From the NCBI GenBank assembly GCA_019638595.1, contig JAHBTJ010000003.1, forward strand, positions 1 through 64,000: a DNA stretch of 64,000 nucleotides, written 5' to 3'. Numbering within the stretch: position 1 is the first letter of the stretch; every line of letters begins with the position of its first letter. The translations under genes were made by a program, and so were the position numbers. Of the stretch, positions 44,217 through 61,200 are shown piece after piece. Under the pieces are notes generated by a model. It was not told the origin of the DNA. It did not search any database and saw nothing but the letters and a program-made list of their open reading frames with translations. The DNA is from Chitinophagaceae bacterium. GTDB lineage: Bacteria > Bacteroidota > Bacteroidia > Chitinophagales > Chitinophagaceae.

Positions 44217-46604
44217 TCACTCCTTTTCCAGTATTTCAAAAGCCCTGCTGATCCGCTGTCCTGTTTCATCTACCAGTGTAATAAAATGTTTTCCCGGCGC
44301 GGGGTTTAGGGCCATCTGGTGGAACCGTTCTGTGCTGCCGATAAATTCATCATCAAGATGCCAGAATATTTTGGCATCGGGCCTTTGGTGCGTAGCGGTA
44401 AAAATAGTTTTGCCTTTTTCACCCGTTAGTTCAACGGGTACATAAATTTTCGCGTTGGCTTCGGGATAGATCATATCCATCACCTTTCGTTCTTCTGCAA
44501 AACAACCTGGTTTAAAAGGAGGAGGTATTTTGTAGTCAAGATGCTTTTTTGCATAATACCATTCCATGGTGGGTGGAAGAATAAACCAGCTTTTATGTAT
44601 CATGCTGGATGGTGTAACGCAGTTCTCGGTTACCCTGTACTGTTGCGTTTCATCCAGGTGGATAATATGATGATAATTGCACAATGACACATTCATTCCG
44701 TTGGGCGGAGAGGCTATGGAGTCTACATCCGGACAATCAATGTTGGCCCTCAAATGGCTTTGCCTGCATACGGCTACCATAATATCGCTGCCGGGTTTTT
44801 CAAACCATTCCGTGGCGGGAAGCGCTTTCGCGATGTCGAACATGATAGGGGCTGCTGTTTGTACGCCAATCAGCCCCGGCCGCCCTTCACCGGTTCCGTT
44901 GCCTGCCCAAACTACAATTACATGCCTGGGGGTAACGCCTACGGCCCATGCATCCCGGAACCCAAAGCTGGTACCTGTTTTCCAGGCAACACGTTGCGAG
45001 GAGCTGAATTGTTTCCACAAGCCTTCTTCTCCCGGTCGCATTACATCTTCCATGGCATTGAACATATACCATATAGAAGTGGCGTCCAGGAAATTAAGAT
45101 GATTGGTTACCGTAGCAGCGGCTTGCGCATTTTGCAGGTACCGGGGTGCGTGAAATTCTTTTGCAGGAATTTTACCTTTATTTTTTTTCGCGTGCAGCAA
45201 CGAACGCGCCATGCCTGCGTACATACCTGCAAGATCCCAGGGGGTTACTTCACATCCTCCCAGTATGAGTGATAAACCATAGTGATCTGCCGGCCGGTTT
45301 AGGGTGGTAATGCCGGTTCTTTTCAGGGTTTCATAAAACCGTGGATACTTATAATCACGCAGCATTCTTACTGCCGGTACATTTAACGACCTGGAGATTG
45401 CCGATGAGGCAGTAACCGCTCCATCGTAATCCCTGTCAAAGTTCTGCGGTGTATATCCTCCTATTTGTGTGGGGATATCCGGCACCAGTGAATGTGGCAG
45501 CAGCATTCCGTCACTTAACATACAGGCATACAGCAAAGGCTTTAACGTGCTGCCGGGGCTGCGTGGAGCGGTAATGATATCTACGTGACTTTGAAGCTCC
45601 GGGTTTTCAGGATGATATGCATTGCCTGTATATGCCAGTGCTGATCCGGTTTCCACATCCAGCACCAGCGCGCATGCGTTGTTGATGCTATTGCCTTTCA
45701 GAAAACGGTGATGTTGCTCAACAATTTGTGTTACGGTTTTCTGCAGGTTAAGCTGGATGGTTGTTTGTGCACGATGACTTGCCCCGGAACGAGACTCTTT
45801 TTTGAATCGTTGCAACAGGTGTGGCGCCCATTGCGGCAGAGGCTTGGGTTCATCGGGCAGCGGTTCAAGTTTAGAAAGCTGACAGGTAGCAGTATCTATT
45901 TCTTTTTGAGAGAGCAGCTTATCCAGCAGCAGGTTTCTCTTTCTTAATAAACCCTGCCTGTTTTTACCCGGGTGTACCAACGCCGGAGCATTGGGCAACA
46001 CTGCCAGTGCGGCCATTTCACCCCAGCTCAGTTTATCGGCACTTCTTCCATAATAGCGCCAGGCGGCAGCATCCAGTCCCACTACATTACTGCCGAACGG
46101 AGCATGTGATGCATACAACGCCAAAATGCTTTTTTTTGAGTAAGCCAGCTCAAGCCTTACCGCGATGATACTTTCTATGAGCTTATAAAAAATATTTCTT
46201 TTTCGTTTGCCGGAAAGCCGTATTACCTGCATGGTAATGGTACTACCGCCGCTTACTGTTCTGGAATACCGGATATTCTGTTGTATAGCCCTGGCCATGG
46301 CGATCGGATCCACACCGGGATGATACAGGAACCGGTTGTCTTCAAATGCGATAATGCAGGTCTTAAATTTATCGGGAACTTCCGGGTTAAAAGGAAAGCG
46401 CCACTGCCCGTCGCCGGCAATGGTAGCGCCCAGGAGTTCCCCCTTGCTGTCTTCCAGCACATAAGAGTCGGGTTCGTTAAACAAAGGATTGGGAAGGGAG
46501 TTCCAGAACCATACGAAGAAAATGATCAAAAATGCCAGTAAGATTTTTGTTCTTCGTTTGAGTTTTTTAATACGGTTGTATATGAATGAAAAGCTTTTTT
46601 TCAT
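44217..46604 (-). CDS. pbpC: Penicillin-binding protein 1C
   Basis: A 795-residue bifunctional peptidoglycan synthase. A short cytoplasmic tail and membrane anchor (ILLAFLIIFFVWFWNSLPNP) precede the glycosyltransferase domain (EDNRFLYHPGVDPIAMARA, GGSTITMQVIRL), the transpeptidase domain with SPGSTLK (Ser352/Lys355), SRSLN and KTGTS (Lys542), and the C-terminal BiPBP_C domain (about 700-795) that marks class 1C. In many bacteria pbpC follows an alpha-2-macroglobulin gene and the two are thought to cooperate in repair and defence of the periplasm. Here that gene is 11.7 kb upstream on the same strand. A dyad just upstream of the start suggests its own promoter. Confidence 0.95.
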   Translation of the reverse strand: MKKSFSFIYNRIKKLKRRTKILLAFLIIFFVWFWNSLPNPLFNEPDSYVLEDSKGELLGATIAGDGQWRFPFNPEVPDKFKTCIIAFEDNRFLYHPGVDPIAMARAIQQNIRYSRTVSGGSTITMQVIRLSGKRKRNIFYKLIESIIAVRLELAYSKKSILALYASHAPFGSNVVGLDAAAWRYYGRSADKLSWGEMAALAVLPNAPALVHPGKNRQGLLRKRNLLLDKLLSQKEIDTATCQLSKLEPLPDEPKPLPQWAPHLLQRFKKESRSGASHRAQTTIQLNLQKTVTQIVEQHHRFLKGNSINNACALVLDVETGSALAYTGNAYHPENPELQSHVDIITAPRSPGSTLKPLLYACMLSDGMLLPHSLVPDIPTQIGGYTPQNFDRDYDGAVTASSAISRSLNVPAVRMLRDYKYPRFYETLKRTGITTLNRPADHYGLSLILGGCEVTPWDLAGMYAGMARSLLHAKKNKGKIPAKEFHAPRYLQNAQAAATVTNHLNFLDATSIWYMFNAMEDVMRPGEEGLWKQFSSSQRVAWKTGTSFGFRDAWAVGVTPRHVIVVWAGNGTGEGRPGLIGVQTAAPIMFDIAKALPATEWFEKPGSDIMVAVCRQSHLRANIDCPDVDSIASPPNGMNVSLCNYHHIIHLDETQQYRVTENCVTPSSMIHKSWFILPPTMEWYYAKKHLDYKIPPPFKPGCFAEERKVMDMIYPEANAKIYVPVELTGEKGKTIFTATHQRPDAKIFWHLDDEFIGSTERFHQMALNPAPGKHFITLVDETGQRISRAFEILEKE

Positions 46605-46900: not shown

Positions 46901-46934
46901 AAGAAAAGCCGGAAACTTCACTGAAGCTCCCGGC
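46901..46934 (-). terminator. Rho-independent-type terminator of the repeat-protein gene
   Basis: Read on the minus strand, gccgg...cttc-agt-gaag...ccggc forms a stem-loop (arms 46930-46934/46908-46912 outside and 46921-46926/46916-46920 inside) followed by ttttctttt. It begins 26 bp after the stop of the 1732-residue gene. Confidence 0.75.
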
Positions 46935-46959: not shown

Positions 46960-49900
46960 TTATTTCACCAGCAACAGTTTCTTTTTTATGTTCAAACCTT
47001 TGTTGCCCCTTGCGTGCACAAAATAGATACCGCTGCTGAGCTGGTAGAGCGTTTTCGAAATTTTCAACTGACCGTTTATGGTACCGTTGTACAGCTCTGC
47101 CACTCTTTGTCCGGATGCAGAATATACACTGATCAGCAATTGTTGTGCCTCGGGTATATTCAGTTCAAGATTTACAGTGCCGTTGGAAGGAATGGGATAG
47201 AGGTAAAGCTGCGATTCATCACTTGTATTATTATTCTCCGGGGCCAGCTTTACATTGGCTTCTGAAATACTGTTTTTATTTTCCCAATTGCCCACCGCAT
47301 CTACCGCTATCACATAAAAGTCATATGTATTTCCGGAAATTCCCGTAACGATGGCAGAATCTTTTACAACTCCTATATAAGTGTAAGATGAGCCATTTTC
47401 TGATGCATAGAGGCGGTATTTCTTTACTCCGCTTGCGGGGTCATTCCCGTTTATCTTTACCACCATCGTACTGTCTGTAAGCTTAAGTGCTTCTGTTACC
47501 CTGGAAGAGGGCAGGTTCCTGTCTATGGTATTGCTCCATACATCCGTAAGTATAGGCTCATTGCTGTCGAAAATAATAGAGGCCCTGTTCGCGATAACTG
47601 TGCCATCCGGTAGTCCGTTTTTCATTTCAATAGAGAAGCTTACATGCCCATCTCCTTCGGGAGCATTGATATTGGGAGGTAAAAATCCTGCTAAGGGGTC
47701 TTCGGTTATTACGCCGGTAGCTTTGTCTATAGTTTTAAAGGTGGCTTTTACAATGCCGGTTTCCTTATCCAGCTTTATGTAGAACCTTACCGCCAGGTTG
47801 TTATCATAATCTACATCTTCTACATATTCGCTTGCTCCAATAGGAATATTAAAGGAACGGGTGCCGAATCCAAAGCTGTTAGCGCTGAATGTAGAAAGGT
47901 CGTATACATTTTTATCGAGCGTATCCAGAATCATCACTTCCTGGGCAGGTAACGTTGCGGTGGACGTATTTTCGAAGAAAATCGTATAGCTTAACCTTTT
48001 GTTGTTTCCGCTGATGTACCGTGCTGCGCCAAAGCCCGAAGGGCCGGACTTGGCATTGGGATCCCAGGAGGTTCTGACATCAACAGGTTTTTCCTTCTCA
48101 TCCTCCAACTCCTCGCAGTCAGCTCTTATCTGCTGTATGTTTACATCAAGGTCAGACAATAATATCGCTACATCCGCAGTCATATCCGCGTATTCAACTG
48201 CCGGCGAAATGGTTGTTGCTACTCCTGAAACTGCTGCTATTTCCCCGGCGCAATCTTTTGCAAAACCGGCCACGGTTTTACCAAATGATGCGGATGCGGC
48301 TTTTCCTGAGCTCCTTCCCGTAAAATAGTTAAAGGCATTGTACAAAGCGGAGCCTACAGCCTTGACTCCTCCACCCAGGCAGTCCAGTCCGGGTATAACA
48401 CTAACGCCATCAAACATTAAATCCCCGAGGAGCTTCAATTTGGCATTAAAGCAGTCATCACCCTTGGTTGTAAAAGGCGATCCTGAATAAGGGCCTTTTA
48501 CCCACAGGTATATTTTATCTAATCCTTCTGTTCCTTTTATATTAAATCGAAGATCGGTGTAGCCGCCCACCGGTATGCCGGAAAGCAGGTAGGGCCTTAG
48601 CTCACCATCTATGGGATATCCTTTGGATTTAAATACAGGAATAACCTCCGGCAGCGTATCCTGGCTTACGGTTTTGAAAGTAAGCTCCATCAGGCTGTCC
48701 AGCCGGGTCACTTCCAGGTTTTTGGGGGTAAGCAGATACACTTCCGTATGTCCCGCCATTACATTGCCCTCATTGTGGATCCTGATGGTATATACGCTGT
48801 TGGTATTGGCACGGATAATATCGCTGCCTATTATTTCACCCGACACCTTATATACGGCCTCATGACATACAAACCCACCCGGAATATTATAGGTAGTATC
48901 ATTGGTAATAATAGATACATCATATACTCCCGCCGGCGCATTATGCATATCCACCAATGCACCAAACACGCTGCCTCTTTCATCAATCCAGGTAACGGAA
49001 TCCTTATATACAGTACCTCCCTGTTTCAGTTGAATACTCATGCCGTTGTGAAAGCCGCCGCCATAAGCGGTGAATACAATATTACCTGCACCGCCTGTTT
49101 CAGGTGTATACCTGTCCAGCCCGTTAACTACCAGCGAAAGCAGGGCGGTATCCCTCAACCTGCACAATTCATTTTCAACAATTAACCGCACATCATAGCC
49201 TCCGGGCTTATAGGTGATCAATGGCGGCGCTACTGTCGTGTACTGCTCTCCGTTGCCCATGCTCCAGGTATATTTTGTAGCGAGGGTTGACTGATTGGTA
49301 AATTCATAAGTACCGCCGGCCCTGCTGTAACCGATCTTTGCTTCCGGCTGCTGATCTTTAAACGCAAATTGCAGATTGTAAGTGAATGACCGGGCTGCGG
49401 ATGGCTGATAAACCAGCACATATACCGAATCGGAGCTGATACAGTTAACGGTGAGTGTGTCTTTTAAAACATCACCCGTACCAACAGCCTTTAAAGTTTT
49501 AAACCCTACCTGCCTTCGGTCTCTGGTATAAACATACAGGGAGAAGCCTGCGTTGTCCACACCTGTATTCTGACCCTCAGCAAAAATGGTAAGGTTTCCG
49601 TTTGCGGGAATGGCGGCTGTGTAGTAATCATTGGCGTCGTTCACTCCGTTGGCCACATACCCTATCAATCCTTTTAAGGTATCTGCAATACGGAACGGCG
49701 TTGCTTCATTAAATGTATTATTCGGCTCGGGGTCGCCCTCCAGCGCATCAGGCATGGTGTACCGTATTTTATAGCTGTATGACCGGGTGCTGCCCTGGTA
49801 CACCAGGAAGTACAGGCTGTCTGCCCCGCGGGAAGTTATCTCAATGGTATCCCGCACGATGTCGCCCTGCGCTGCTGAGCCACTGCCTATGGTTCCTTTG

Positions 49901-52158
49901 TATGCAATCTGGCGGCGGCTTCTGTCGTAGGCGTAGAAAGAGAAAGAACCGGTGTTGCCACCCGTATGCGTTCCTTCAAAATATACGGTAACCGTACCAT
50001 CGGCAGGCAACAGCGTTTTGTAATAATCATAACGGTCGGTTACACCATCCGCTATATACCCCAGGTGGCCGGCGGCGGTAACATTGTGCGCTATCTCAAC
50101 GGCTTCTCCAAAGCTGTCGTTAGGTTCAGGATCGTTGGCGCTCTGGTCAATTACTTCATAGTGCATCTTGTAGCTGTACGAGCGGCTACTGCCCTGGTAT
50201 AAAACCAGGTAAATACTGTCTGCCCCGCGGGAAGTTATCTCAATGGTATCCCGCACGATGTCGCCCTGCGCTGCTGAGCCATTGCCTATGATTCCTTTGT
50301 ATGCGATCTGGCGGCGGCTTTTGTCGTAAGCGTAAAGAGAAAAAGAACCGGCGCTGCCACCTGTATGCGTACCTTCAAGATATACTTTCACCGTACCATC
50401 AACATGAAGCAGGGTTTTGTAGTAGTCATACCGGTCGGTTACTCCATCCGCCTCATAACCCAGGTGACCGGCAACCGGAACATTATGCTCAATATTCACT
50501 GCTTCACCATAGCTGCCGTTAGGTTCCGGATCGTTAGGGCTCTGGTCAATCACTTCGTAACGCAGTGTATAACTGTATGACCGGGCGCTGCCTTGGTACA
50601 CCATCAGGTAAATGCTGTCCGCTGCACGGGAAGTAATGTAGATCGTATCAGAAACCGTATCACCTTGCGTCGCGGAACCATTCCCTATAGTTCCTTTGTA
50701 TGCGATCTGGCGGCGGCTTTTGTCGTAAGCGTAAAAGGAAAAAGAACCGGTATTGCCACCTGTATGCATACCTTCAAGATATACTTTTACCGTACCATTG
50801 GCGGGAAGCAGGGTTTTGTAGTAATCATAACGGTCGGTCACACCATCCGCTTCATAGCCCAGGTGTCCGAATGAAGCAACATTTTGTCCAACCTCCGTTG
50901 CTTCTCCAAAGCTGCCGTTGGGCTCCGGGTCGTTGACGCTCTGATCAACTACTTCATAACGCATCTTATAGGTGTAGGAGCGGCTGCTGCCCTGGTATAG
51001 TACCAGGTAAATACTGTCTGCCGCACGGGAGGTAATGTAGATGGTATCATGCACCGTATTCCCCAATGTTGCTGTACTATTCCCTATAACTCCTTTGTAT
51101 GCTATCTGACGCCGGCTTTTGTCGTAGGCATAGAAAGAAAAGGAGCCTGTGCTGCCGCCTGTATGGGTTCCTTCAAGATACACTTTTACGGTACCATCGG
51201 CGGGCAACAGCGTTTTATAATAATCATAGTTATCTGTTACTCCATCCGCTACCTGGCCCAGTTGCCCTTCCATTACTTCATCCATGTTCAGGGGAGATGC
51301 CGTTGCATAGCTGTTGTTCGGTTCCGGGTCGTTGGGGTTCCTGTCTGTTATCGTGTACCGCAACCCATAGCTGTAAGATCGGCTACTTCCCTGGTACAGT
51401 ACTATATAGATGCTGTCTGCCGCACGGGAATGCACCGTAAGCGAATCGCTGACTGTTTCACCCTTTAAGGCCGACGAATTTCCTATTACGGATTTATAGG
51501 CGATCTGCCTTCTTGATTTGTCGTAAACATATACTGAAAAAGAACCGGCGCTGCCGCCTGTATGCGTCCCCTGAAGATAAATTTTCACCGTACCGTCGTC
51601 AGGGAGCAGGGTTCGATAATAATCATACCGGTCGGTTACGCCATCCGCCTCATAGCCCAGGTGGCCGGAGGCCGTAACATTGTATCCGATAGCACGCGCT
51701 TCTCCAAAACTGCCGTTGGGTTCTGCATCGTTGGTACTCTGGTCGGTTACTTCATAGCGGATATTGACGTTGTAGTACCGGCTGCTGCCCTGGTATAACA
51801 ACAGGTAAATGCTATCCGCCGCACGGGAATGTATTTCAATGGTATCCTTTACCGTATCGCCCTGTACTGCTGAGCCATTGCCTATCGTTCCTTTGTATGC
51901 AATCTGGCGCCGGCTTTTATCGTAAGCATAAAAGGAAAAAGAACCGGCACTACCGCCGGCGTGTATTCCTTCAAGATATACTTTCACTGTGCCGTCGGCC
52001 GGCAACAGGGTTTTGTAATAATAATATCGCTGGTTATTACTGACAGCGCCTGTTTTTGGATTTCCCGCATCAATTGCTTCCGCGGTTGCAAAGTCAGATT
52101 GAGCCGCCAGGCCATTGCACAGCAGCAAAGCCAGCAAAAAAAGTAAAGTTACTCGCAT
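46960..52158 (-). CDS. Large T9SS-exported protein with seven tandem repeats
   Basis: 1732 residues. A signal peptide (LLFLLALLLCNGLAAQ) is followed by seven repeats of about 133 residues (about 21-943), each with PEPN, GHLGYEADGVTDRYDYYKTL, DGTVKVYLEG, AYDKSRRQIAYKG and DSIYLVLYQGS; the layout resembles pre-peptidase C-terminal (PPC) beta domains. A PKD-like domain (about 945-1030), long beta-sandwich regions, a DUF11/DUF7619-like segment (DPNAKSG, IFFENTSTATLPAQEV) and a fibronectin-like stretch come next. The C-terminal 75 residues (LYPIPSNGTVNLEL to LLLVK) are a type A T9SS sorting signal. It is likely a surface or secreted adhesin-like protein. The PorV-like gene lies 48 bp upstream on the same strand. 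Confidence 0.88.
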   Translation of the reverse strand: MRVTLLFLLALLLCNGLAAQSDFATAEAIDAGNPKTGAVSNNQRYYYYKTLLPADGTVKVYLEGIHAGGSAGSFSFYAYDKSRRQIAYKGTIGNGSAVQGDTVKDTIEIHSRAADSIYLLLYQGSSRYYNVNIRYEVTDQSTNDAEPNGSFGEARAIGYNVTASGHLGYEADGVTDRYDYYRTLLPDDGTVKIYLQGTHTGGSAGSFSVYVYDKSRRQIAYKSVIGNSSALKGETVSDSLTVHSRAADSIYIVLYQGSSRSYSYGLRYTITDRNPNDPEPNNSYATASPLNMDEVMEGQLGQVADGVTDNYDYYKTLLPADGTVKVYLEGTHTGGSTGSFSFYAYDKSRRQIAYKGVIGNSTATLGNTVHDTIYITSRAADSIYLVLYQGSSRSYTYKMRYEVVDQSVNDPEPNGSFGEATEVGQNVASFGHLGYEADGVTDRYDYYKTLLPANGTVKVYLEGMHTGGNTGSFSFYAYDKSRRQIAYKGTIGNGSATQGDTVSDTIYITSRAADSIYLMVYQGSARSYSYTLRYEVIDQSPNDPEPNGSYGEAVNIEHNVPVAGHLGYEADGVTDRYDYYKTLLHVDGTVKVYLEGTHTGGSAGSFSLYAYDKSRRQIAYKGIIGNGSAAQGDIVRDTIEITSRGADSIYLVLYQGSSRSYSYKMHYEVIDQSANDPEPNDSFGEAVEIAHNVTAAGHLGYIADGVTDRYDYYKTLLPADGTVTVYFEGTHTGGNTGSFSFYAYDRSRRQIAYKGTIGSGSAAQGDIVRDTIEITSRGADSLYFLVYQGSTRSYSYKIRYTMPDALEGDPEPNNTFNEATPFRIADTLKGLIGYVANGVNDANDYYTAAIPANGNLTIFAEGQNTGVDNAGFSLYVYTRDRRQVGFKTLKAVGTGDVLKDTLTVNCISSDSVYVLVYQPSAARSFTYNLQFAFKDQQPEAKIGYSRAGGTYEFTNQSTLATKYTWSMGNGEQYTTVAPPLITYKPGGYDVRLIVENELCRLRDTALLSLVVNGLDRYTPETGGAGNIVFTAYGGGFHNGMSIQLKQGGTVYKDSVTWIDERGSVFGALVDMHNAPAGVYDVSIITNDTTYNIPGGFVCHEAVYKVSGEIIGSDIIRANTNSVYTIRIHNEGNVMAGHTEVYLLTPKNLEVTRLDSLMELTFKTVSQDTLPEVIPVFKSKGYPIDGELRPYLLSGIPVGGYTDLRFNIKGTEGLDKIYLWVKGPYSGSPFTTKGDDCFNAKLKLLGDLMFDGVSVIPGLDCLGGGVKAVGSALYNAFNYFTGRSSGKAASASFGKTVAGFAKDCAGEIAAVSGVATTISPAVEYADMTADVAILLSDLDVNIQQIRADCEELEDEKEKPVDVRTSWDPNAKSGPSGFGAARYISGNNKRLSYTIFFENTSTATLPAQEVMILDTLDKNVYDLSTFSANSFGFGTRSFNIPIGASEYVEDVDYDNNLAVRFYIKLDKETGIVKATFKTIDKATGVITEDPLAGFLPPNINAPEGDGHVSFSIEMKNGLPDGTVIANRASIIFDSNEPILTDVWSNTIDRNLPSSRVTEALKLTDSTMVVKINGNDPASGVKKYRLYASENGSSYTYIGVVKDSAIVTGISGNTYDFYVIAVDAVGNWENKNSISEANVKLAPENNNTSDESQLYLYPIPSNGTVNLELNIPEAQQLLISVYSASGQRVAELYNGTINGQLKISKTLYQLSSGIYFVHARGNKGLNIKKKLLLVK
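49330..52098 (-). repeat. Intragenic tandem repeat array, unit about 399 bp
   Basis: The seven protein repeats are also visible as DNA repeats: for example gtaccatcggc/gtaccgtcgtc followed by gg(c/g)a(a/g)(c/g)a(a/g)(c/g) recurs near 49996, 50393, 50793, 51193, 51591 and 51990, a period close to 399 bp. The second to sixth units are the most alike, and the seventh (49330-49730) is diverged, as is the shorter first unit. Such similarity at the DNA level suggests recent expansion or ongoing homogenisation. Confidence 0.85.
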
Positions 52159-52206
52159 GCGATAAAAATTTTAAGAAATAAACTATGATACATACAGGTA
52201 TACAGA

Positions 52207-53328
52207 TCAGCGGTTGTTGGTGTTCCAGTTCAGCAGCAGCGAAAAACGCATGGTATTGGAAAGTGGGTTCTGGTTGATACCGTTGCCTGATGGTACCAGG
52301 TATGAGAAATTGAATCCCAGTATGTTATAACGTGCACCAACACCCGCTGTAAAATACTGCCTGTTGCCTCTTGCTGCAGATTCAAAAAAGTAGCCGGTGC
52401 GTACAGCAAAAAGCTGGTCATACCAGTATTCCAGCCCGGCGGATATACCTAGTTGTCCCGGCAGATCGGAGAAAGAGTTGCCCCAGCTTTCTACAACATT
52501 CTTTTGGCGGTATACCCTGATCTCTTCGGGTGAATCACCCTTTAATACCGGCACCAGGAGTTTATTGACATCAACAGCTATTGAAACGGCATGTACTTCA
52601 TTTAATACCTTGTTCCATGAAGCGCCGATACCCAGGTTAGCAGGCAGGAAATCTTTTTCCGAAGCGTTTTGTATGTAAGAAATTTTTGAACCGAGGTTGC
52701 TGAGAGCGGCGCCATAGGTAAATCCATCTCCTTCATTCCGGCTGTCATAGTACAGTCCAATGTCTGCGGCAACGGCAGATCCGTTTTGATAGTTATAGCC
52801 TGAAACAGATACATTGTTTACAATTGCAGAATGTATGTATTTTGCCGTGATACCGAGGCCGAGTTTGTCTGATAGCTTCCTTGAGTAGCTTATATCAATA
52901 CTCATTTCGCGGGGGCGGCTGCTGCCTAAGTTATCATGTCCGTCAGAAGTAAACTGAATATCTCCCAGGCTGAAATACCTTACGCCGATACCTATCGCAT
53001 GGTTATCACCGGGCTTGTAAAAGCCTGCTGCGGAGGCTAAGTATGTATCGTTGCTGATCTTTTTTAACCAGGGAATATAGGAAACTATTGCCCCGCCTTC
53101 GTCTTCATTAAATACAATTTTACCCGCGTTCCAGAATATAGATCCGGCATCTGGTAAAGCAGCGATTCCCACATCGCCCATTCCGCCAGCTCTGGCATCG
53201 GGCGACACACGCAGGAAGGGTACAGGAGTGGTAGCAATGTTGATTGATTTTTGAGCGAAGGCAGATATAAACAAGAGGCTGGCTGAGCATAGCATTGATA
53301 TCTTTCTCAAAAGTTGTTTGGTTTTCAT
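52207..53328 (-). CDS. PorV/PorQ-family outer-membrane barrel protein
   Basis: A 373-residue outer-membrane beta-barrel of the PorV (LptO) type, with signal peptide (ISMLCSASLLFISAFAQ) and the diagnostic start PFLRVSPDARAGGMGDVGIA. It continues with SIFWNAGKIVF, YFSLGDIQFT and SYSRKLSDKLGLGITAKYI. PorV shuttles T9SS cargo from the translocon to the attachment complex. It ends 48 bp before the T9SS-sorted repeat protein on the same strand, so it may be that protein's dedicated partner. Whether it is the organism's main PorV or a paralogue cannot be told from here. Confidence 0.85.
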   Translation of the reverse strand: MKTKQLLRKISMLCSASLLFISAFAQKSINIATTPVPFLRVSPDARAGGMGDVGIAALPDAGSIFWNAGKIVFNEDEGGAIVSYIPWLKKISNDTYLASAAGFYKPGDNHAIGIGVRYFSLGDIQFTSDGHDNLGSSRPREMSIDISYSRKLSDKLGLGITAKYIHSAIVNNVSVSGYNYQNGSAVAADIGLYYDSRNEGDGFTYGAALSNLGSKISYIQNASEKDFLPANLGIGASWNKVLNEVHAVSIAVDVNKLLVPVLKGDSPEEIRVYRQKNVVESWGNSFSDLPGQLGISAGLEYWYDQLFAVRTGYFFESAARGNRQYFTAGVGARYNILGFNFSYLVPSGNGINQNPLSNTMRFSLLLNWNTNNR

Positions 53329-53403
53329 GTTGAAGTGTTGTACACTTCCTATCGCATAAATGTGATCAAGGTAATCAACCGGAGCAGGTTTTTTAGAAAA
53401 AGC

Positions 53404-56400
53404 TTATCGTTTTCTTTTAGACCGCACAAACCATACTATACCGCTGAGCAAAGCAAGCGCAGCAGCGATTGTCCATATTTTAGAATATGAAGTTTCAAAT
53501 ACGGGCTTTTCGTTTCCTACCAGCGTCATGCCTGCCCAGAAGTAAGGATGTGCGGATGAAAGATCAGATGCCTTTATATGTTCCAGCTTGGCAAGGCGGA
53601 GCGCTTCGCTTTTGGTTTTGCCCTCCGACAGGTATTTATAAAATCCGGCAATGATGCCGGCGCTGGCTTTTTCATCAATCTTCCATAAGCTCATTATTAC
53701 CGATGGACAACCGGCATACATAAAGCTATGCGCCAGCGATATTACTCCTTCGCCCTGCGTTAAGCTTCCGGAGCCGGTTTCGCAGGCGGTCAATACTGCC
53801 AGCTCCGCCTGCAGGTGCATACCATAAATTTCGTACGCATGCAGATAGCCGTCTTCATTTGTTACCGAGTCTGCTGACAATTGTTTGGCCAGGAAAAAAC
53901 GGGATTGCAACGGAGCCTGGTTATTGATCTCGGCATGTGTGCCTAAATGAAGAATGTTGTATAGCCCGGCAGTCCGTTTAAATACGGCTTCTTCGGCGTC
54001 CTGTTCAGCATACAGGTCGTTTTTAATATACCTGCTTATCTGCTGCACAGCTTTCATTGCAAAAGGCTGGCGAAGTAAGCTAAAGTATTGTTTGTCCGCA
54101 GCCAAAGAATCTCCCATGAACTGCAGGTAAGCTTTCTTCATGTTGTCCGTGAATACGGGAGTAAGCAACATCGCCTTTTGTTCTTTTGCCTGGCTTGCAG
54201 GCGTTTGCACCGCGTTGGTGGCCGATAGCTGGTACGAAATTTCATAGCGATGGATCAGGTAATTCATCTGCGCGAAATCCTTTTGCTGGTCATCAAGCAG
54301 CAGTAGCTCAAAGTTCAGGTAAAACAGGTCTCCATCGGGTACAATGATCAGCTTACCGGATGTGAAATGTTTTTGCGCCGGTTTTATCAGCCCATTATAC
54401 AGGGGATACGCCGCATTACGGAATTTTTCGGGAGTAACGCTGTAAAGCTGCTTTAGTTCAGAAACCTTGCTTAAAATATGTACAGGCAGGCGGTAGGCAA
54501 AAAAATCTTTATCCGTTAAAACAAAAAGAAAAATATGATCGTCTGTTATTGCATATTCCAGCAGGGTTTGCTTTTCGGTTAGCAGCCCGGCCTGTATTTC
54601 GGGTATGCTGATCGGGCGAAGGGAATACCTGGATTTGAGCATACTGTTTTCCGCGGAATGCAGCACACTGTCCTGGAACCTGTAATAAGCTTCTATAGAA
54701 GCGGTCAGCAAGGTAAGCAGGGAGTCGTTTTTTCTGCCTTCATCCATGTACCGGGCATTCAGCGAGCTGATCGTTTTTCGCCAGTACAGGTCTCTTTTCT
54801 CCGTTTCCGTATGAGATCCCTGGCTGGCATCAATCAGTATATTGTTCGATGCCAGGCGTAGTATCAGGGCTTTGCTTCTTTCGGAAAAAGAGAAAGCCCT
54901 GTCAAGAAAACGCCTGTCATTTTTTTGCTCAAATAGTACCCAGCATGCTTCTATAGCGGTATTGTATATTGCTTTGTGCTGCTTTGCCAGTTGCATCAGG
55001 CTTGCCTGTGTGCGCAAAGCAGGCAGGCTTTTTTCCAGGTACCCGCTGTAATGATCTGCAACAGCTATCAGTGCTTCCAGCGCTGATAGCCGGCCGGTAC
55101 GCTTATGTATCGCGGCTTCAATGGCAGCGCGGTTTTGCAGGTATTGAATGATCTGATAACTATAAGGGAGGTTTTTGACCCAGTCGCCATCGGGCAAAGA
55201 CGATACCTGCAATAATTCCATGAATACACTGTCGGAGTATAAAAGCGCTTTTTCGGGCTGGTTACTGAGCATCCATACTTCACTGATCTTATTGTATTGC
55301 CCGGCAATGCTGATATCTCCGGGAGCACGAATTTCCCTGTACCTTTTCAGGATGGCTTCCAGTATAGGAAAAGCGAGCTCCGTGCGGCCCGACCGGGCAT
55401 AAGTTTGAGCCAGCGTATTCCTGGTTTCTTCAACGATCGTGGTATTGGATATTCCCGCTTTTTTATAATTGGTTAAAGCTTTTTTGTAATAATCCTCCGC
55501 CTGTGTAAAGTTGTCCTCTCCCAAAAAAAGATCACCATACTGCGATTGTACATAAGCCATATTGATCCGGTCCGAAGGATCTACCTGCTGCTGCAGTGAA
55601 TAGGCGCGGGCGTACAGCTTTTCGGCTTCGGCAAATTTGCCTGATTCCCTTTTGGCATTTGCAAGGTGGGTCAATGGACGTACAAAGCCCGCTCCATCCG
55701 CGCCAAAATTAATTTCGTGCAGTTGCGCGGCTTTTTCATAATATTCTTCTGCCAGGTGAAATTCGCCCGTAGCGTCATAAAGCTTGCCCATGTTATTGTA
55801 AGCGATCGCCAGCAACTGTGGGTTTTTATGTTTGGCATAATCTTTCTGAATGATCCTTACCATTGCCTGCCGGTGAAACAGGGCTTCATCGTAGCGGTGC
55901 AGGGTTTCGTATAACGAGCCCAGGTCATTATGCACCAACCCCATTTTAGGATGATCGGGACTGAAGTTCAGTTGTGCGAGCCGGTACATTTCCAGTCCGT
56001 ACTGCTCAGCCTGGTTGTATTGTTCTGCATCGTGCGTAATATACATCAGCGATTGATAGATGCTGATCAACTGGCGGGCGTCTTTACCATATAATTCTTC
56101 ATTGATTTTTTTTGCCTGTTCTGCGTATTGCAGCGCCGGGGTAAAATCCTGCAGGTTGAGGTATAGCCACGAAACATTGTTGTATAAGGAGCTGTAAATG
56201 CTGTTAGCTTTTGCGTGTGGCGGCACCTGTTTCAACGCTTCAAAAAAATACTTTTTCGCGGTTGCTGTTTCAGCGTTGTGTACATGAATTTGCGCTTTTT
56301 TGTTAAGAAAAGCTACCAGCGCTATACTGCCTGCCGGCAGGCTACGGGCTATGTTAAGTGTTTCATCCAAAATTTTTAGCGCGGCCCGGTTGCCTGTTTG

Positions 56401-56613
56401 TTCCCAAACCATATCTGCCTTGTGCGTATACGATAGTACAAGGCTGTCTGTTTTTTTCTCTTTCCTGAAAAGATCAATTGCCTTGTTAATGTACAAAAAT
56501 GCGCTGTCTGTTTTTTGATTGCGGTTGGCTTCTACCGATTGAATATACCAGTTGTCCTGGGTATAGCCTGCGGTATATACAGTCAAAAAATAAATGATGA
56601 TCAGCCAACGCAT
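53404..56613 (-). CDS. CHAT-domain (caspase-like) protease with TPR repeats
   Basis: 1069 residues: a signal peptide (LIIYFLTVYTAGYTQ), about ten TPR units (roughly 60-480, e.g. IAYNNMGKLYDATGEFHLAEEYYE), a linker, the CHAT domain (about 760-1035), and a C-terminal membrane helix (IWTIAAALALLSGIVWFV) with a basic tail. The CHAT His/Cys dyad is intact: His893 in HLGTHAEINNQ and Cys944 in VLTACETGSGSL. The LAHSFMYAGCPSVIMSLWKI segment is also typical. The protein is probably anchored in the inner membrane facing the periplasm. CHAT proteases work in several signalling and immunity systems; this one sits with an ECF sigma factor and a membrane TPR protein. Confidence 0.9.
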   Translation of the reverse strand: MRWLIIIYFLTVYTAGYTQDNWYIQSVEANRNQKTDSAFLYINKAIDLFRKEKKTDSLVLSYTHKADMVWEQTGNRAALKILDETLNIARSLPAGSIALVAFLNKKAQIHVHNAETATAKKYFFEALKQVPPHAKANSIYSSLYNNVSWLYLNLQDFTPALQYAEQAKKINEELYGKDARQLISIYQSLMYITHDAEQYNQAEQYGLEMYRLAQLNFSPDHPKMGLVHNDLGSLYETLHRYDEALFHRQAMVRIIQKDYAKHKNPQLLAIAYNNMGKLYDATGEFHLAEEYYEKAAQLHEINFGADGAGFVRPLTHLANAKRESGKFAEAEKLYARAYSLQQQVDPSDRINMAYVQSQYGDLFLGEDNFTQAEDYYKKALTNYKKAGISNTTIVEETRNTLAQTYARSGRTELAFPILEAILKRYREIRAPGDISIAGQYNKISEVWMLSNQPEKALLYSDSVFMELLQVSSLPDGDWVKNLPYSYQIIQYLQNRAAIEAAIHKRTGRLSALEALIAVADHYSGYLEKSLPALRTQASLMQLAKQHKAIYNTAIEACWVLFEQKNDRRFLDRAFSFSERSKALILRLASNNILIDASQGSHTETEKRDLYWRKTISSLNARYMDEGRKNDSLLTLLTASIEAYYRFQDSVLHSAENSMLKSRYSLRPISIPEIQAGLLTEKQTLLEYAITDDHIFLFVLTDKDFFAYRLPVHILSKVSELKQLYSVTPEKFRNAAYPLYNGLIKPAQKHFTSGKLIIVPDGDLFYLNFELLLLDDQQKDFAQMNYLIHRYEISYQLSATNAVQTPASQAKEQKAMLLTPVFTDNMKKAYLQFMGDSLAADKQYFSLLRQPFAMKAVQQISRYIKNDLYAEQDAEEAVFKRTAGLYNILHLGTHAEINNQAPLQSRFFLAKQLSADSVTNEDGYLHAYEIYGMHLQAELAVLTACETGSGSLTQGEGVISLAHSFMYAGCPSVIMSLWKIDEKASAGIIAGFYKYLSEGKTKSEALRLAKLEHIKASDLSSAHPYFWAGMTLVGNEKPVFETSYSKIWTIAAALALLSGIVWFVRSKRKR

Positions 56614-56623
56614 CAGAAATAAA

Positions 56624-57352
56624 TTAGGGAAGTGTCTTTTGGATGTCGTGTATAAGCTGTTTCGCTTGTTCGTTATTCGTAAGTTTGCTCAGCCAGTCAA
56701 TTGCCTTTTCTTTTTCATTCATTTTTAAATAGGCGAGCGACAGGTACCATATTGCTTTGGATTGCCAGGCGCTTTTGTCATCCTGCGCTACCGCTACCAG
56801 GTACTCCGTTGATGCGGCAGGGTTTTCATTGTTGAGGTTGGCTGCCCCTATAAAATACGACACCGTATCGGAAGGCAACGCAATGTTTTTCCATATTTCA
56901 ATTGCCTTGCTGTATTCTCCTTCTTTATAGCTTACCATCCCGTTATAAAAATCATACCTGTCATGCTCGCCGCTCATTACAACAGGCAGGCCCGCATCGG
57001 GCACAAAATAGCTGGCATATAATTGTTCATCTTTGCCTGTATTGCTCCTGAAAAACCACGTAACCAAAATAATGGCAACAGTCGCAGCAGCGGCATACAA
57101 CCAGGTACTGTTGAGCTTTTTTACAGGCGCCTTTTGACCGGTCATGCTTTTTACGGGTTCTTTCCTGTTATGTGAAAAAACCTCTACCGATGCCATTAAC
57201 CGGCGCTGGAGATCTACCTCGTTCCTGAGCGCTTCATCAGATCCCATTTCTTTTTCAAAGGCTATGCGGGTATTAACATCCATCCTGTTGTGAATGTATG
57301 CTTCTATTTTTTCGAAGAGGTCTTTATCAATATGGTCGTTATATTCCATCAT
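56624..57352 (-). CDS. Single-pass membrane TPR protein, probable anti-sigma factor
   Basis: About 242 residues. I place the start at the ATG ending at 57352 (tandem ATGs); a TTG five codons upstream is also in frame. The cytoplasmic N-terminus (DLFEKIEAYIHNRMDVNTRI, ALRNEVDLQRRLMASVEVF) looks like the helical sigma-binding part of Bacteroidota anti-sigma proteins. One membrane helix follows (WLYAAAATVAIILVTWFF, about 87-104), then TPR-like repeats (YNGMVSYKEGEYSKAIEIW, AIWYLSLAYLKMNEKEKAI). It lies 33 bp after the ECF sigma gene and 10 bp before the CHAT gene, which supports an anti-sigma or sensor role. This is inferred, not shown. Confidence 0.75.
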   Translation of the reverse strand: MMEYNDHIDKDLFEKIEAYIHNRMDVNTRIAFEKEMGSDEALRNEVDLQRRLMASVEVFSHNRKEPVKSMTGQKAPVKKLNSTWLYAAAATVAIILVTWFFRSNTGKDEQLYASYFVPDAGLPVVMSGEHDRYDFYNGMVSYKEGEYSKAIEIWKNIALPSDTVSYFIGAANLNNENPAASTEYLVAVAQDDKSAWQSKAIWYLSLAYLKMNEKEKAIDWLSKLTNNEQAKQLIHDIQKTLP

Positions 57353-57385
57353 CCGTTTTTCATTCAATTTTTTGTTTCAGTCACA

Positions 57386-57928
57386 TCAGGTCCGTTTCAT
57401 TTCCTCCAGGAATAGCTTCCTCAATTGCATCATACAACGGTATTTGATCGTTTTAATGCTCTCTTCGGTATTCTGTGCCTCGTGTGCTATCTCTGCCAGC
57501 GATTTCTTTTTATAATAAAACAATCCTACCACCTTTTGACATTTTTCTCCAAGCTGCGAAAAACATTTCTTTAAAGCGGCGCTCTGTTGCAGGCTGTCGT
57601 TGAACGAATCGTTCTCTTCGTTGTTTCTTTCAGGAACCACGTCGGTATACGAAATGTTTTTCCTGTTGCCCGACCTGAGCTCATCAATCCATTTAAACTT
57701 GCATATCTGCCGCACATAGGCGTTAAAGCGATCCCGGGTACCCGAAAATTTTCCGGATTGCAGGTTTATCCAGGCTGCGGCAATGCCTTCCTGGAAAATA
57801 TCCCGCGCGTCGTCGCTGTTGCCGGAGTTTTGCAGCACATACGTTTCAAACCAGCTAAAATTATCTGAATATATGCGGCTTAAGGTTTTTTCAGGGTTTT
57901 CCTGAAGCCAATCAGTCAGGGTTTCCAA
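57386..57928 (-). CDS. ECF RNA polymerase sigma factor
   Basis: A 180-residue sigma-70 family factor: region 2 at about 20-90 (YVLQNSGNSDDARDIFQEGIAAAWINLQSG, YVRQICKFKWIDELR) and region 4 at about 110-175 (LGEKCQKVVGLFYYKKKSLAEIAHEAQ, ESIKTIKYRCMMQLRKLF). The start is a TTG at 57928, because a stop codon lies directly before it and no ATG occurs in the first 100 codons. It heads a same-strand run with the TPR membrane protein, CHAT protease, PorV-like barrel and T9SS repeat protein, and probably controls that run. Confidence 0.92.
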   Translation of the reverse strand: METLTDWLQENPEKTLSRIYSDNFSWFETYVLQNSGNSDDARDIFQEGIAAAWINLQSGKFSGTRDRFNAYVRQICKFKWIDELRSGNRKNISYTDVVPERNNEENDSFNDSLQQSAALKKCFSQLGEKCQKVVGLFYYKKKSLAEIAHEAQNTEESIKTIKYRCMMQLRKLFLEEMKRT

Positions 57929-58290
57929 TTAAAACTATCTTTTTTTGAAAGATACGGCTTTTGAAAAAAAACAGTTCAATTTTTGGTAATAATATGGTTC
58001 CCTGTGAAAAACTGTATGACCGGCATACCTAAAACCAGCTTATACTCATTGTTTTATAGTATATCGTCTCCAGGTTAAAAAGGTCAACAAAAAATAAATT
58101 GTGTGCAGTTTACTGTTGAATCCAATGGCATTTTGTATAGTGTAGCAACTGAACTACGTTTAGTTCAGTTGCCTGGGGATACATATCTGAAACAAGTCGA
58201 ATAGCGATTACTGCTTGTAGAAAACATGCAGGACGTTTCATTCGCCTGCTGCGGCGGACTACCCTGTAAAGGATAATACAGGCGGCTGAG
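57929..58290. other. Intergenic region with a perfect palindrome, sigma gene promoter region
   Basis: This 362-bp gap separates the alpha-2-macroglobulin stop from the ECF sigma start. No gene is supported. It contains a perfect 11-bp inverted repeat, gcaactgaact (58145-58155) and agttcagttgc (58162-58172), around a 6-base centre. No T-run follows on either strand, so it fits an operator better than a terminator. The promoter of the sigma-CHAT run should lie between here and 57928, in AT-rich sequence. Confidence 0.55.
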
Positions 58291-61200
58291 CTACCGCACC
58301 ACTTCTATCCATTTACCGCTTACTCCCGCGCTGATGGTGTTGTCATACATGGCATCGCAGTATACGCCCGGCAGGAAATACCTGCCAAGGTAGGCCGCGT
58401 TCAGCATTACATAATATGTATGTGTTTCTCCCTCCCGTATGTCAAAATGCGTATATACCCTGTCGTCGCGGATATCCTGGTAGGTAAAGGCAGAAGGTTT
58501 AAAGCCGCCTTCGTTATCCAGCAGTCGCGTGTTTAATATCTCCCACCCGCCGGGGAATATCTGCGATAAGGTCATATTGTTATAACGGCCGCGTATACCC
58601 GGGTTTTTAATGGTTACTTTCGCTACAAAATCGGTACCCTGCGTTAAGCTTTCCACATTGCCCACGGGTTTTCCGTCCAGCGTTACATAGCTTACGCTCA
58701 GCGACAACACGTCGGGATTATTGGTATACTGTACATTTTCGCCTGTTACCGGGCGCCCCTGCGTTACAAGCCGTACATACAAAATATTGTTTCCCTTGTT
58801 CCGGATGCTGATATTTTTATCGGGTTCCGTTACACTTACAGGCGTGAGCGATACATACGATTTTGAGTTGATAGCCGCTTTTTTACCATTAACGGTTACA
58901 TCCGCAACAATTTTCTCTCCGCCGGGATTAGCGCCACAGTAGGCGGCAATGGCAATTAAGCTATACGCAGTAGTTTGTGTGCTGTACCAGCGCTCGCCTG
59001 CCAGGTCTGCCGATATGGATTGAAGCAACTCGCCCGCTTCTTTTCGTTTGCCCATGAGCGTAAGTGTTTCCAGTACCATTGCCTGGTCGCGCAGGCTGGA
59101 GCCGTATGTTATACCGGGCGATTTTCTTTTTTCAAATGTAACGGGCAGCCCGGCTATCAGCGATTCGGCGGTTTTGCTTTGACCCGCCAACTGGTATGCC
59201 GCGGCTAAACGCCATTTGGCTTCGGGCGACAGGAACTTAAACTCCTTCAGCCTGTTCATTGCGCCCATTTCGGGCGATTTAGCCAACGCCAGTAAATACA
59301 GCCGGTACGACTGGGTAAGATCCCCGCCGTAAAAATTAGTGGTGGAAGGAGCCCAGTTACCAGCCTTGTTGCGCTGGTAGGTAATCCATTGCTGTATCAT
59401 ATCTGCAGGAACAATATAGCCTTTCTCCTGCGCCTTTAAAAGGAAATGGCCTGCGTAGTTAGTGCCCCAGTCATCGCTTTCGGTTAGCCCCGGCCAATAG
59501 CTGAATCCCCCGTCGGGGCGCTGAAAATTTTTATAGCGCTCAATACCCGAACGGATATTTTTTTCGGTTTCAGCTTTTTTTCTTTCACTCAATTCCGTAA
59601 GCTGGCTCAATACCAGTTGGGGAAATACAGCCGAAGTGGTTTGCTCAATACAGCCGTGCGGGTATTGGATCAGGTAGTCGAGCCGTTTTTCGAGGTTGAT
59701 GGGAGGTATGCTGGATATTTCCAGTGTGGCTTTACTGTTTGCCGGTATACCTATGGGAGCGGCCAACTGGTTCCACGACTGCCCGGCATGCACTACTTCT
59801 GCCATTACATTGGTAATAACGGGGTTGGGATTTCTTATATCCAGCTCAACCTCGTAGTCGGCTTTTTCATTTCCGCTGCTGGCAACGAGCTTTACTTTTC
59901 CAATACCGGTGGTTTCTTTCACTCTTACATCAAAATAAACCATTTCTTCACCGGATGCAGTAAAGCTGACCTGCTGAGAAGCGCTTCCTGTTGTTTCGAG
60001 ATACGCGTTGTTTTGCAAGGTTACCGTTACGTTTTTTATGTTATTGTCCATTGCAAAAACGGTTACCGGCAATTTGATGGTTTCGGCAGGCCCCAAAACC
60101 CTGGGCAGTGTGCCTAATAACATCAATGGTTTTTTTACGGCAACCGCTTTTTCAGCAAACCCGTAAGCGCCATCACTGGCAGCTACTACCATTGTTCTTA
60201 CAGAGCCGATATAGGGAGGCAATTGAAATTTGTGTGTTTGTTTGTCGCCTTTCTTAAGGTGAAAAGGACCCAGGTATTTTACAACCGGCTTAAACCGGTT
60301 GGCTCTTTTTTCCTTAGCGCCGCCACTTGCCGCTTCATCGCCGCCAATGGTCAGGATTCTTTCCAGTCCCCCGCCCCAGGCGCCGATCACGTTGTCGAAC
60401 AGATCCCAGCTTTTTACACCCAGTGCTTCACGTGCGTAGAAAGCAGCGTGCGGATCGGGTGTTTTAAAACGGGTAAGATCCAGCAAGCCTTCGTCTACGA
60501 TCGCAACGCAATAGGTCATGGCTTTACCCGATGTTTCAGATACGGTTACCGACGATGCCTGTTCCGGCCGTATTACATCCGGCATGCTGATCACAGGCTT
60601 CAACAGGGTATTTTTGTCTTCGATCAGTATAGGAATAACGCCGTACATGCGGATGGGCAGATCGTTCGCTGTTTGCGCGTGCGGCTGCAGCAGGCTTACA
60701 TTGGCATACAGGTTAGGGGCCATTCCCGGTTCGGCTTTAAACCTGTAAATGGTTTGTCCCTGTTCCGTTTCAATCCAGTCGGTTTTAACAATACGGCTGC
60801 CCGACTCAATGCTGATCAATGCCCTGCCGCCTTTGCTGCTGGGAATATTTAAAGTGATTTCCTCGCCTACATTGTATTTTTCCCTGCCGGCGGTAAACGA
60901 CAGCATCGCTGCTGCCGAAGGATCGTTGGCGTTGTTGCGGGTTTGCCACCAGGGATCGTCAAAATATACAACCTGCCCGGTGGTATGCTTACTAACGCGG
61001 TCGCGCACCAGTACAAGATACCGCCCCCATTCGCCGCCCGGCGCCGAAAGCTGCCATTTACCAACGCCATTGGTTAAACGAAGTGTATCTTTCTTTAGTA
61101 ATTTGTTATACGTGTTCTGTGTAAAATTGCTGAAACCGTCGCCGGTATTATCCCACCACCAGCGCCAGCTTACCCGGTACAGCTCTACTTCCACCTGTTG

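Follow-up and report, generated by a model that had tools for sequence, protein, structure and literature searches.

Background

A caspase-like protease that acts on the inhibitor of a σ factor has a precedent. In Craspase, the TPR-CHAT protease Csx29 cleaves Csx30 and so relieves the inhibition of an ECF-like σ factor; the passage in question names DegS-RseA-σE as a parallel (PMC10028731). A different relation between CHAT genes and σ factors is sketched for ECF54, in a review section concerned mainly with actinobacterial systems: the genomic context of ECF54 includes CHAT, subtilase and carboxypeptidase genes, and the section has it work without an anti-σ (PMC8999054, as proposed there). In T9SS secretion PorV is described as a shuttle for substrates (PMC5562754, in the part cited), and type B cargos are known, from the passages cited, to have PorP/SprF barrels of their own, encoded in clusters with them (PMC10202324, PMC9143113). 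Among the papers listed in literature searches none was recognisable as a description of a σ factor combined with a membrane protein and a CHAT protease, an earlier listing in the ECF reclassification being possible; nor did a type A cargo with an extra PorV of its own turn up among them.

The locus

The window (the whole stretch of DNA analysed, 64,000 nucleotides) contains at positions 46960-57928 five open reading frames on the minus strand, separated by 33, 10, 75 and 48 bp. The ORFs, the gaps and the terminator that follows them had been picked out in a sequence-only reading of this DNA, and all were confirmed on the sequence. In the order of transcription the features are these:

57936..57955, minus strand: dyad GTATCTT-N6-AAAGATA, 7 nt before the σ gene
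57386..57928, minus strand: ECF σ factor of 180 aa with a TTG start; Sigma70_r2/r4 domains, TIGR02937 at 69.9 bits (cut-off 42.9)
56624..57352, minus strand: putative anti-σ (predicted), with an N-terminal cytoplasmic domain, one TM, a conserved post-TM segment and a TPR end
53404..56613, minus strand: TPR-CHAT protease with a predicted signal peptide, a C-terminal TM and His893/Cys944
52207..53328, minus strand: extra PorV (T9SS shuttle; NF033710), distinct from the genome's other PorV
46960..52158, minus strand: T9SS type A cargo with a signal peptide, seven 133-aa repeats, a PKD-like stretch, DUF7619 and a T9SS tail
46908..46934, minus strand: terminator-like hairpin 3' of the cargo gene, 12 pairs followed by a T-run

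The membrane protein gene has a possible upstream TTG start at 57367; the ATG at 57352 is the most likely start because relatives start there, and it gives the 33-bp gap to the σ gene. The five genes appear to form one operon. On the same strand they lie between bacterial α-2-macroglobulin and PBP1C-type genes (44217-46604 and 58291-63903 in the window; likewise in G004, the closest relative found), genes of kinds that adjoin each other in E. coli.

A dyad of the form GTATCTT-N6/7-AAAGATA upstream of the σ gene is conserved in close relatives. Searched as the exact pattern GTATCTTN{5,8}AAAAGATA in four genomes picked because their modules carry it, it occurs once in each, always before the σ gene, and a reversed control pattern found no match in the same four; a slightly shorter pattern also matches the G004 and G010 loci, and the more distant G019 has one dyad half only. 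A scan for σ70 promoters found 21 sites against 23.1 in shuffled sequence, which is no excess. A dyad confined to the σ gene would agree with a single principal start under local control better than with a visible regulon.

Three genes recur, not five

An alignment built from 20 CHAT sequences was used to seek relatives among named genomes, and the best 80 of 228 confirmed relatives were kept; the trio was scored with local profiles, a σ factor and a membrane protein being required within 6 kb of the CHAT gene. It is complete at 69 of these 80 loci and at 19 of 20 CHAT-seeded loci from a second set (nine contigs are common to both sets). Searching from the membrane protein gave 40 further loci. 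Of the 25 strongest matches, 14 were already covered through CHAT seeding, which left 11 for this set; the other 29 loci come from the next 32 matches. Both a σ factor and a CHAT protease are found near the membrane protein in 35 of the 40: in 8/11 of the strong matches, two of the three misses being short contigs that end by the module, and in 27/29 of the weaker. Since module members served to train the profiles, the weaker, more distant matches are the fairer test. As background, σ matches appear in 2 of 785 ORFs lying more than 4 kb away.

The CHAT loci span Chitinophagaceae, Parapedobacter, many Flavobacteriaceae, Membranihabitans and Aquiflexum. Eleven of the 80 named loci are without the σ/membrane-protein pair (L102, L132, L133, L135, L138, L149, L150, L155, L157, L160 and L167); eight of them are from Aequorivita, one on a 6-kb contig, while the trio is complete at L154, the ninth locus from that genus. 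At two of the Aequorivita loci that are without the pair, a related lipoprotein-like gene of 376-380 aa precedes the CHAT gene (L132:8052-9182 and L149:8045-9187).

A sample of 395 genomes from the phylum gives the wider picture. It has the membrane protein in 45 genomes and the CHAT protease in 181, and by a comparison made by hand CHAT is present in 38 of the 45 genomes with the membrane protein and in 143 of the 350 without. Seen from the other side, 143 of 181 CHAT genomes have no membrane protein, 137 of them from outside the window's class; within that class 36 of 42 CHAT genomes do have it. CHAT itself thus has a far broader distribution than the trio.

As far as gene content and order can tell, then, the recurring unit is three genes: an ECF σ factor, a one-TM membrane protein and a TPR-CHAT protease. 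The sequence-only reading had taken all five genes as the module, and would have given it up if the five were rarely found together. They are: the five in window order occur in five genomes only, while the first three recur together at most of the loci compared. The five-gene unit is rejected, the PorV and cargo genes being mostly absent from CHAT loci.

At the named loci the arrangement of the trio is tight. Membrane protein and nearest CHAT gene share a strand at all 69 named loci that have both; the median spacing is -8 bp between σ and membrane protein (69 named loci) and 3.5 bp between membrane protein and CHAT (66 named loci), ORF starts being set at the first possible codon, so that overlaps are upper bounds. 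Among the named loci the CHAT gene precedes the σ/membrane-protein pair at L162. In the 40 membrane-protein-seeded loci the nearest CHAT gene shares the strand of the membrane protein in 23 and lies on the opposite strand in 13, with no pair in 4. The weaker loci of this set have CHAT proteins mostly of about 850-955 aa, and in several the membrane-protein and CHAT genes are separated by an ORF of about 460-510 aa; three such ORFs, one of them from the window's own genome, were checked by Pfam and are subtilases. That genome has four CHAT genes, three with σ and membrane-protein neighbors and one, on C9, without.

Several variants occur. A paralogous module in the window's genome (C51, L074:9603-15438) has a subtilase between membrane protein and CHAT. 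At L119, L125, L129 and L143 two CHAT genes stand in tandem behind one σ/anti-σ pair. In seven genomes a gene for a β-lactamase-family serine hydrolase (PF00144) is found upstream or downstream, no more than 350 bp from the trio; the profile for it was built from three of the seven genes, the same three that were checked by Pfam. Three Flavobacteriaceae loci (L134, L139, L141) have longer, weaker hydrolase matches equally near. The seven genes are:

L052:11166-12338, PF00144 hydrolase
L068:5046-6302, PF00144 hydrolase
L098:7245-8429, PF00144 hydrolase
L105:7167-8489, PF00144 hydrolase
L096:7340-8527, PF00144 hydrolase
L061:14430-15605, PF00144 hydrolase
L162:11086-12297, PF00144 hydrolase

A membrane protein with the predicted layout of an anti-σ

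By hydropathy, a hydrophobic start is found in 3 of 131 σ proteins and in none of 130 membrane proteins, and in 120 of the 130 the first TM begins at residue 60-140. The membrane protein thus has the layout of an anti-σ: it adjoins the σ factor and has, by hydropathy, a single TM and an N-terminal cytoplasmic domain. Its similarity to known anti-σ proteins is of a lower order. The NCBIfam anti-σ model NF052375 matches 55 of 68 homologues at E ≤0.1 (best 3.1e-9), below its curated cut-off; the window protein scores 16.8 bits against a cut-off of 100, over residues 48-110 with the TM included. Some generic TPR-protein models match more members of the family than the anti-σ models do. The TPR label itself, given to the protein in the sequence-only reading, is clear for the family profile and falls below cut-off in the window copy; the structure matches listed are almost all to TPR or other helical-repeat proteins.

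Conservation within the protein peaks in the segment just after the TM (mean 0.67, against 0.47 for the N-terminal domain and 0.52 for the rest), whose family consensus directly after the TM reads YFxPDPGLPxxMS. This segment is a candidate recognition or cutting site. The sequence-only reading paired the σ factor with a membrane partner, which is present, and had the TPR protein and CHAT sense or cleave something, perhaps the anti-σ; on the layout just described, the TPR protein is itself the likely anti-σ of the adjoining σ factor.

The CHAT protease

The window protein matches PF12770 at 8.9e-56 (189.9 bits, cut-off 24). Cys944, which the sequence-only reading had proposed as a CHAT residue, is conserved by alignment together with His893 in 143/143 CHAT proteins, where a cruder motif count had found the His/Cys pair in 106/143. 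A hydrophobic stretch at the N-terminus is found in 135/143 by an 11-residue hydropathy test, a looser test picked after a stricter 19-residue one that gave 76/143 only; the stricter test gives a C-terminal TM in 129/143 and both ends in 66/143. Set beside the topology of the membrane protein, this places the CHAT domain, by prediction, in the same compartment as the membrane protein's TPR end, the periplasm, with the protease apparently anchored in the inner membrane and facing outward. The structure matches listed for the CHAT protein fall on its TPR region, and the FimS model matches these TPRs at 4.4e-10, far below its cut-off.

A swappable payload

That a PorV stands next to a T9SS cargo, as had been proposed, is supported by the family models. 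The window PorV scores 375.7 bits with the NF033710 equivalog (cut-off 250). The cargo has a TIGR04183 T9SS tail (35.1 bits, cut-off 23) and an N-terminal hydrophobic stretch, as type A cargos do, and carries DUF7619 and a sevenfold repeat whose period is 133 residues. The PPC model PF04151 matches 19 of 35 homologous repeat pairs at E ≤1 (best 1.3e-6) but not the window's own pair; a comparison of the cargo repeats with solved structures gave no match.

The order σ factor, membrane protein, CHAT, PorV, cargo is found in G000, G006, G007, G011 (where the contig end cuts the cargo) and G019; Parapedobacter soli has the order CHAT, cargo, PorV. Twelve genomes were searched for the PorV family (L163 was left out): all 12 have a strong PorV elsewhere, and exactly the six carriers of a module PorV have that extra copy. 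Further PorV-family copies occur away from the module, for example in G069, G420, G323 and G019. In a tree, five module PorVs form one clade (100/100) beside the ordinary PorVs; the Parapedobacter module PorV falls elsewhere on a long branch, with long-branch warnings. All six may go back to a single origin or may not. Away from its CHAT module, G069 has another PorV next to an MBG-repeat protein of 1731 aa whose T9SS tail is below cut-off (L267:9977-16324).

Among 16 genomes searched for the cargo, eight have matches that cover the repeats, and all eight have the trio. No repeat-covering match was found in G004, G009, G010 and G069, where the trio is present, or in four genomes of the same genus whose best CHAT matches are weak. 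Of the 80 named loci, 5 have a PorV and 7 have cargo-repeat genes no farther than 6 kb from CHAT. At the G004 locus the flanks are collinear with the window at 85% and the trio region at 77%, there is no real match to PorV or cargo between the collinear flanks, and a β-lactamase-family gene occupies their place. The trio can accordingly stand without this payload, which G004 may have lost. Judged from such comparisons, PorV and cargo are a swappable payload of the trio.

Is the cargo family at least faithful to CHAT? It is not. A search with the repeats alone finds matches in 36 of 394 family genomes; nine weak-match genomes were left out, and in the 27 examined the repeat gene has the CHAT trio as neighbor in 9, a histidine kinase (within four genes) in 14, neither in 4 and both in 0, against a background of kinases in 10 of 2312 ORFs. 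A constant association with CHAT is therefore rejected. Nine repeat-adjacent kinases put to Pfam all have kinase domains, and eight of the nine have TPRs at E ≤0.001 (five over cut-off); two regulators tested near these kinases are LuxR-type response regulators. One surface-protein family may thus be wired to either of two TPR-sensor systems.

How might the cassette work?

The sequence-only reading proposed an envelope system in which a CHAT protease adjoins a σ factor and its membrane partner, and that much the sequence supports. Going further, we give about an even chance to a three-gene envelope signaling cassette in which a periplasmic CHAT protease controls the anti-σ by regulated proteolysis. 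The membrane protein would hold the σ factor at the inner membrane; the TPR region of CHAT would sense some signal in the envelope, which might be the condition of a secreted or surface protein; the caspase-like domain would then cleave or release the anti-σ next to the membrane, with the YFxPDPGLP segment or its vicinity as a possible place for the cut; and the freed σ factor would transcribe its own operon together with a lineage-specific payload. In the window's genome the payload would comprise a surface-displayed repeat protein of PPC-like type and its private PorV, the latter fetching this cargo from the T9SS translocon. This regulated-proteolysis reading is supported by the recurrence and close spacing of the trio, the higher share of CHAT among genomes of the phylum sample that have the membrane protein, the hydropathy topology, the catalytic pair, the conservation after the TM, the precedent of Csx29 and the keeping of the trio where the payload is absent. 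Against it weigh the anti-σ similarity below cut-offs, a topology based on hydropathy, the 11 of 80 loci without the pair and the many CHAT genomes (143/181) without the membrane protein. Taken jointly, the claim would be of a widespread, apparently undescribed class in which a periplasmic CHAT is the dedicated site-1 protease of an ECF anti-σ, the TPRs are an exchangeable sensor and payloads are gained and lost as units; so much at once we hold tentatively, on the doubtful side of even.

Might the CHAT protease instead be what the σ factor switches on? The σ/anti-σ pair would then sense stress through its own TPRs and deploy CHAT, in some loci with a subtilase, against other envelope proteins. 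The membrane protein does have TPRs of its own, a subtilase or secreted metalloprotease gene joins the trio at some loci, and in the 13 of 40 loci where it lies on the opposite strand CHAT resembles a member of a regulon; but CHAT is the constant third gene where other proteases vary, and the named loci have tight same-strand spacing. An effector CHAT seems to us possible, if rather doubtful. It is improbable that maturation or quality control of the T9SS cargo or PorV is the task of CHAT, the σ factor only adjusting expression: one apparent operon of five genes in five genomes would suit this, but the scarcity of PorV (5/80) and cargo-repeat genes (7/80) near CHAT, the bare trio of G004 between collinear flanks and the repeat genes beside histidine kinases do not. 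A caspase-like death or defence module, in which CHAT kills the cell or blocks a phage after σ activation, could appeal to the TPR-CHAT protease that acts in Craspase (PMC10028731, in the passage cited). We think it very improbable, since PADLOC returned nothing beyond generic TPR and weak AbiN matches for the five proteins and no match for five flanking ones, and the CHAT topology is predicted to be that of an exported protein. ECF genes are common in Chitinophagaceae, but that an ECF/anti-σ pair lies beside a CHAT gene by chance is scarcely credible, being contradicted by the recurrence of the trio across families and orientations against a background of 2/785.

If the regulated-proteolysis reading is true, caspase-like enzymes gain a job in envelope signaling in many Bacteroidota, beyond the CRISPR setting of Craspase; three genes suffice for testing the protease-substrate pair; and the choice of T9SS cargo becomes linked to the regulation of genes. 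A further question, raised by a type A cargo that comes with a PorV of its own, is whether PorV copies have cargo preferences.

Comparison with known systems

SprB/SprF and PorP-like clusters, as the cited passages describe them, resemble the window in that a cargo and its dedicated PorV-like barrel are encoded in one cluster (PMC10202324, PMC9143113). The window differs in having a cargo whose tail fits the type A model and, for a barrel, an extra copy of the PorV equivalog. FimS-type kinases control surface fimbriae. The likeness here is that the FimS model matches the TPRs of CHAT; the difference is that the output of FimS is phosphorylation rather than proteolysis. Judged by gene context, the window σ factor also departs from ECF54, in that an anti-σ-like protein adjoins it.

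DegS is a PDZ serine protease. The window protease, in contrast, belongs to the CHAT cysteine proteases and has a long TPR region. What DegS-RseA-σE has in common with the arrangement proposed here is a membrane anti-σ under the control of a protease (PMC10028731, in the passage cited). A search with PADLOC models for the type III-E effector Cas7-11 found no match in the five module and five flanking proteins. Like the trio, Craspase (Csx29, Csx30 and CASP-σ; type III-E CRISPR), as the same passage presents it, links a TPR-CHAT protease to an ECF-like σ factor and its inhibitor (PMC10028731). It differs from the window in that the window CHAT protease is predicted to be exported, with a C-terminal TM, and that the putative inhibitor is a membrane TPR protein.
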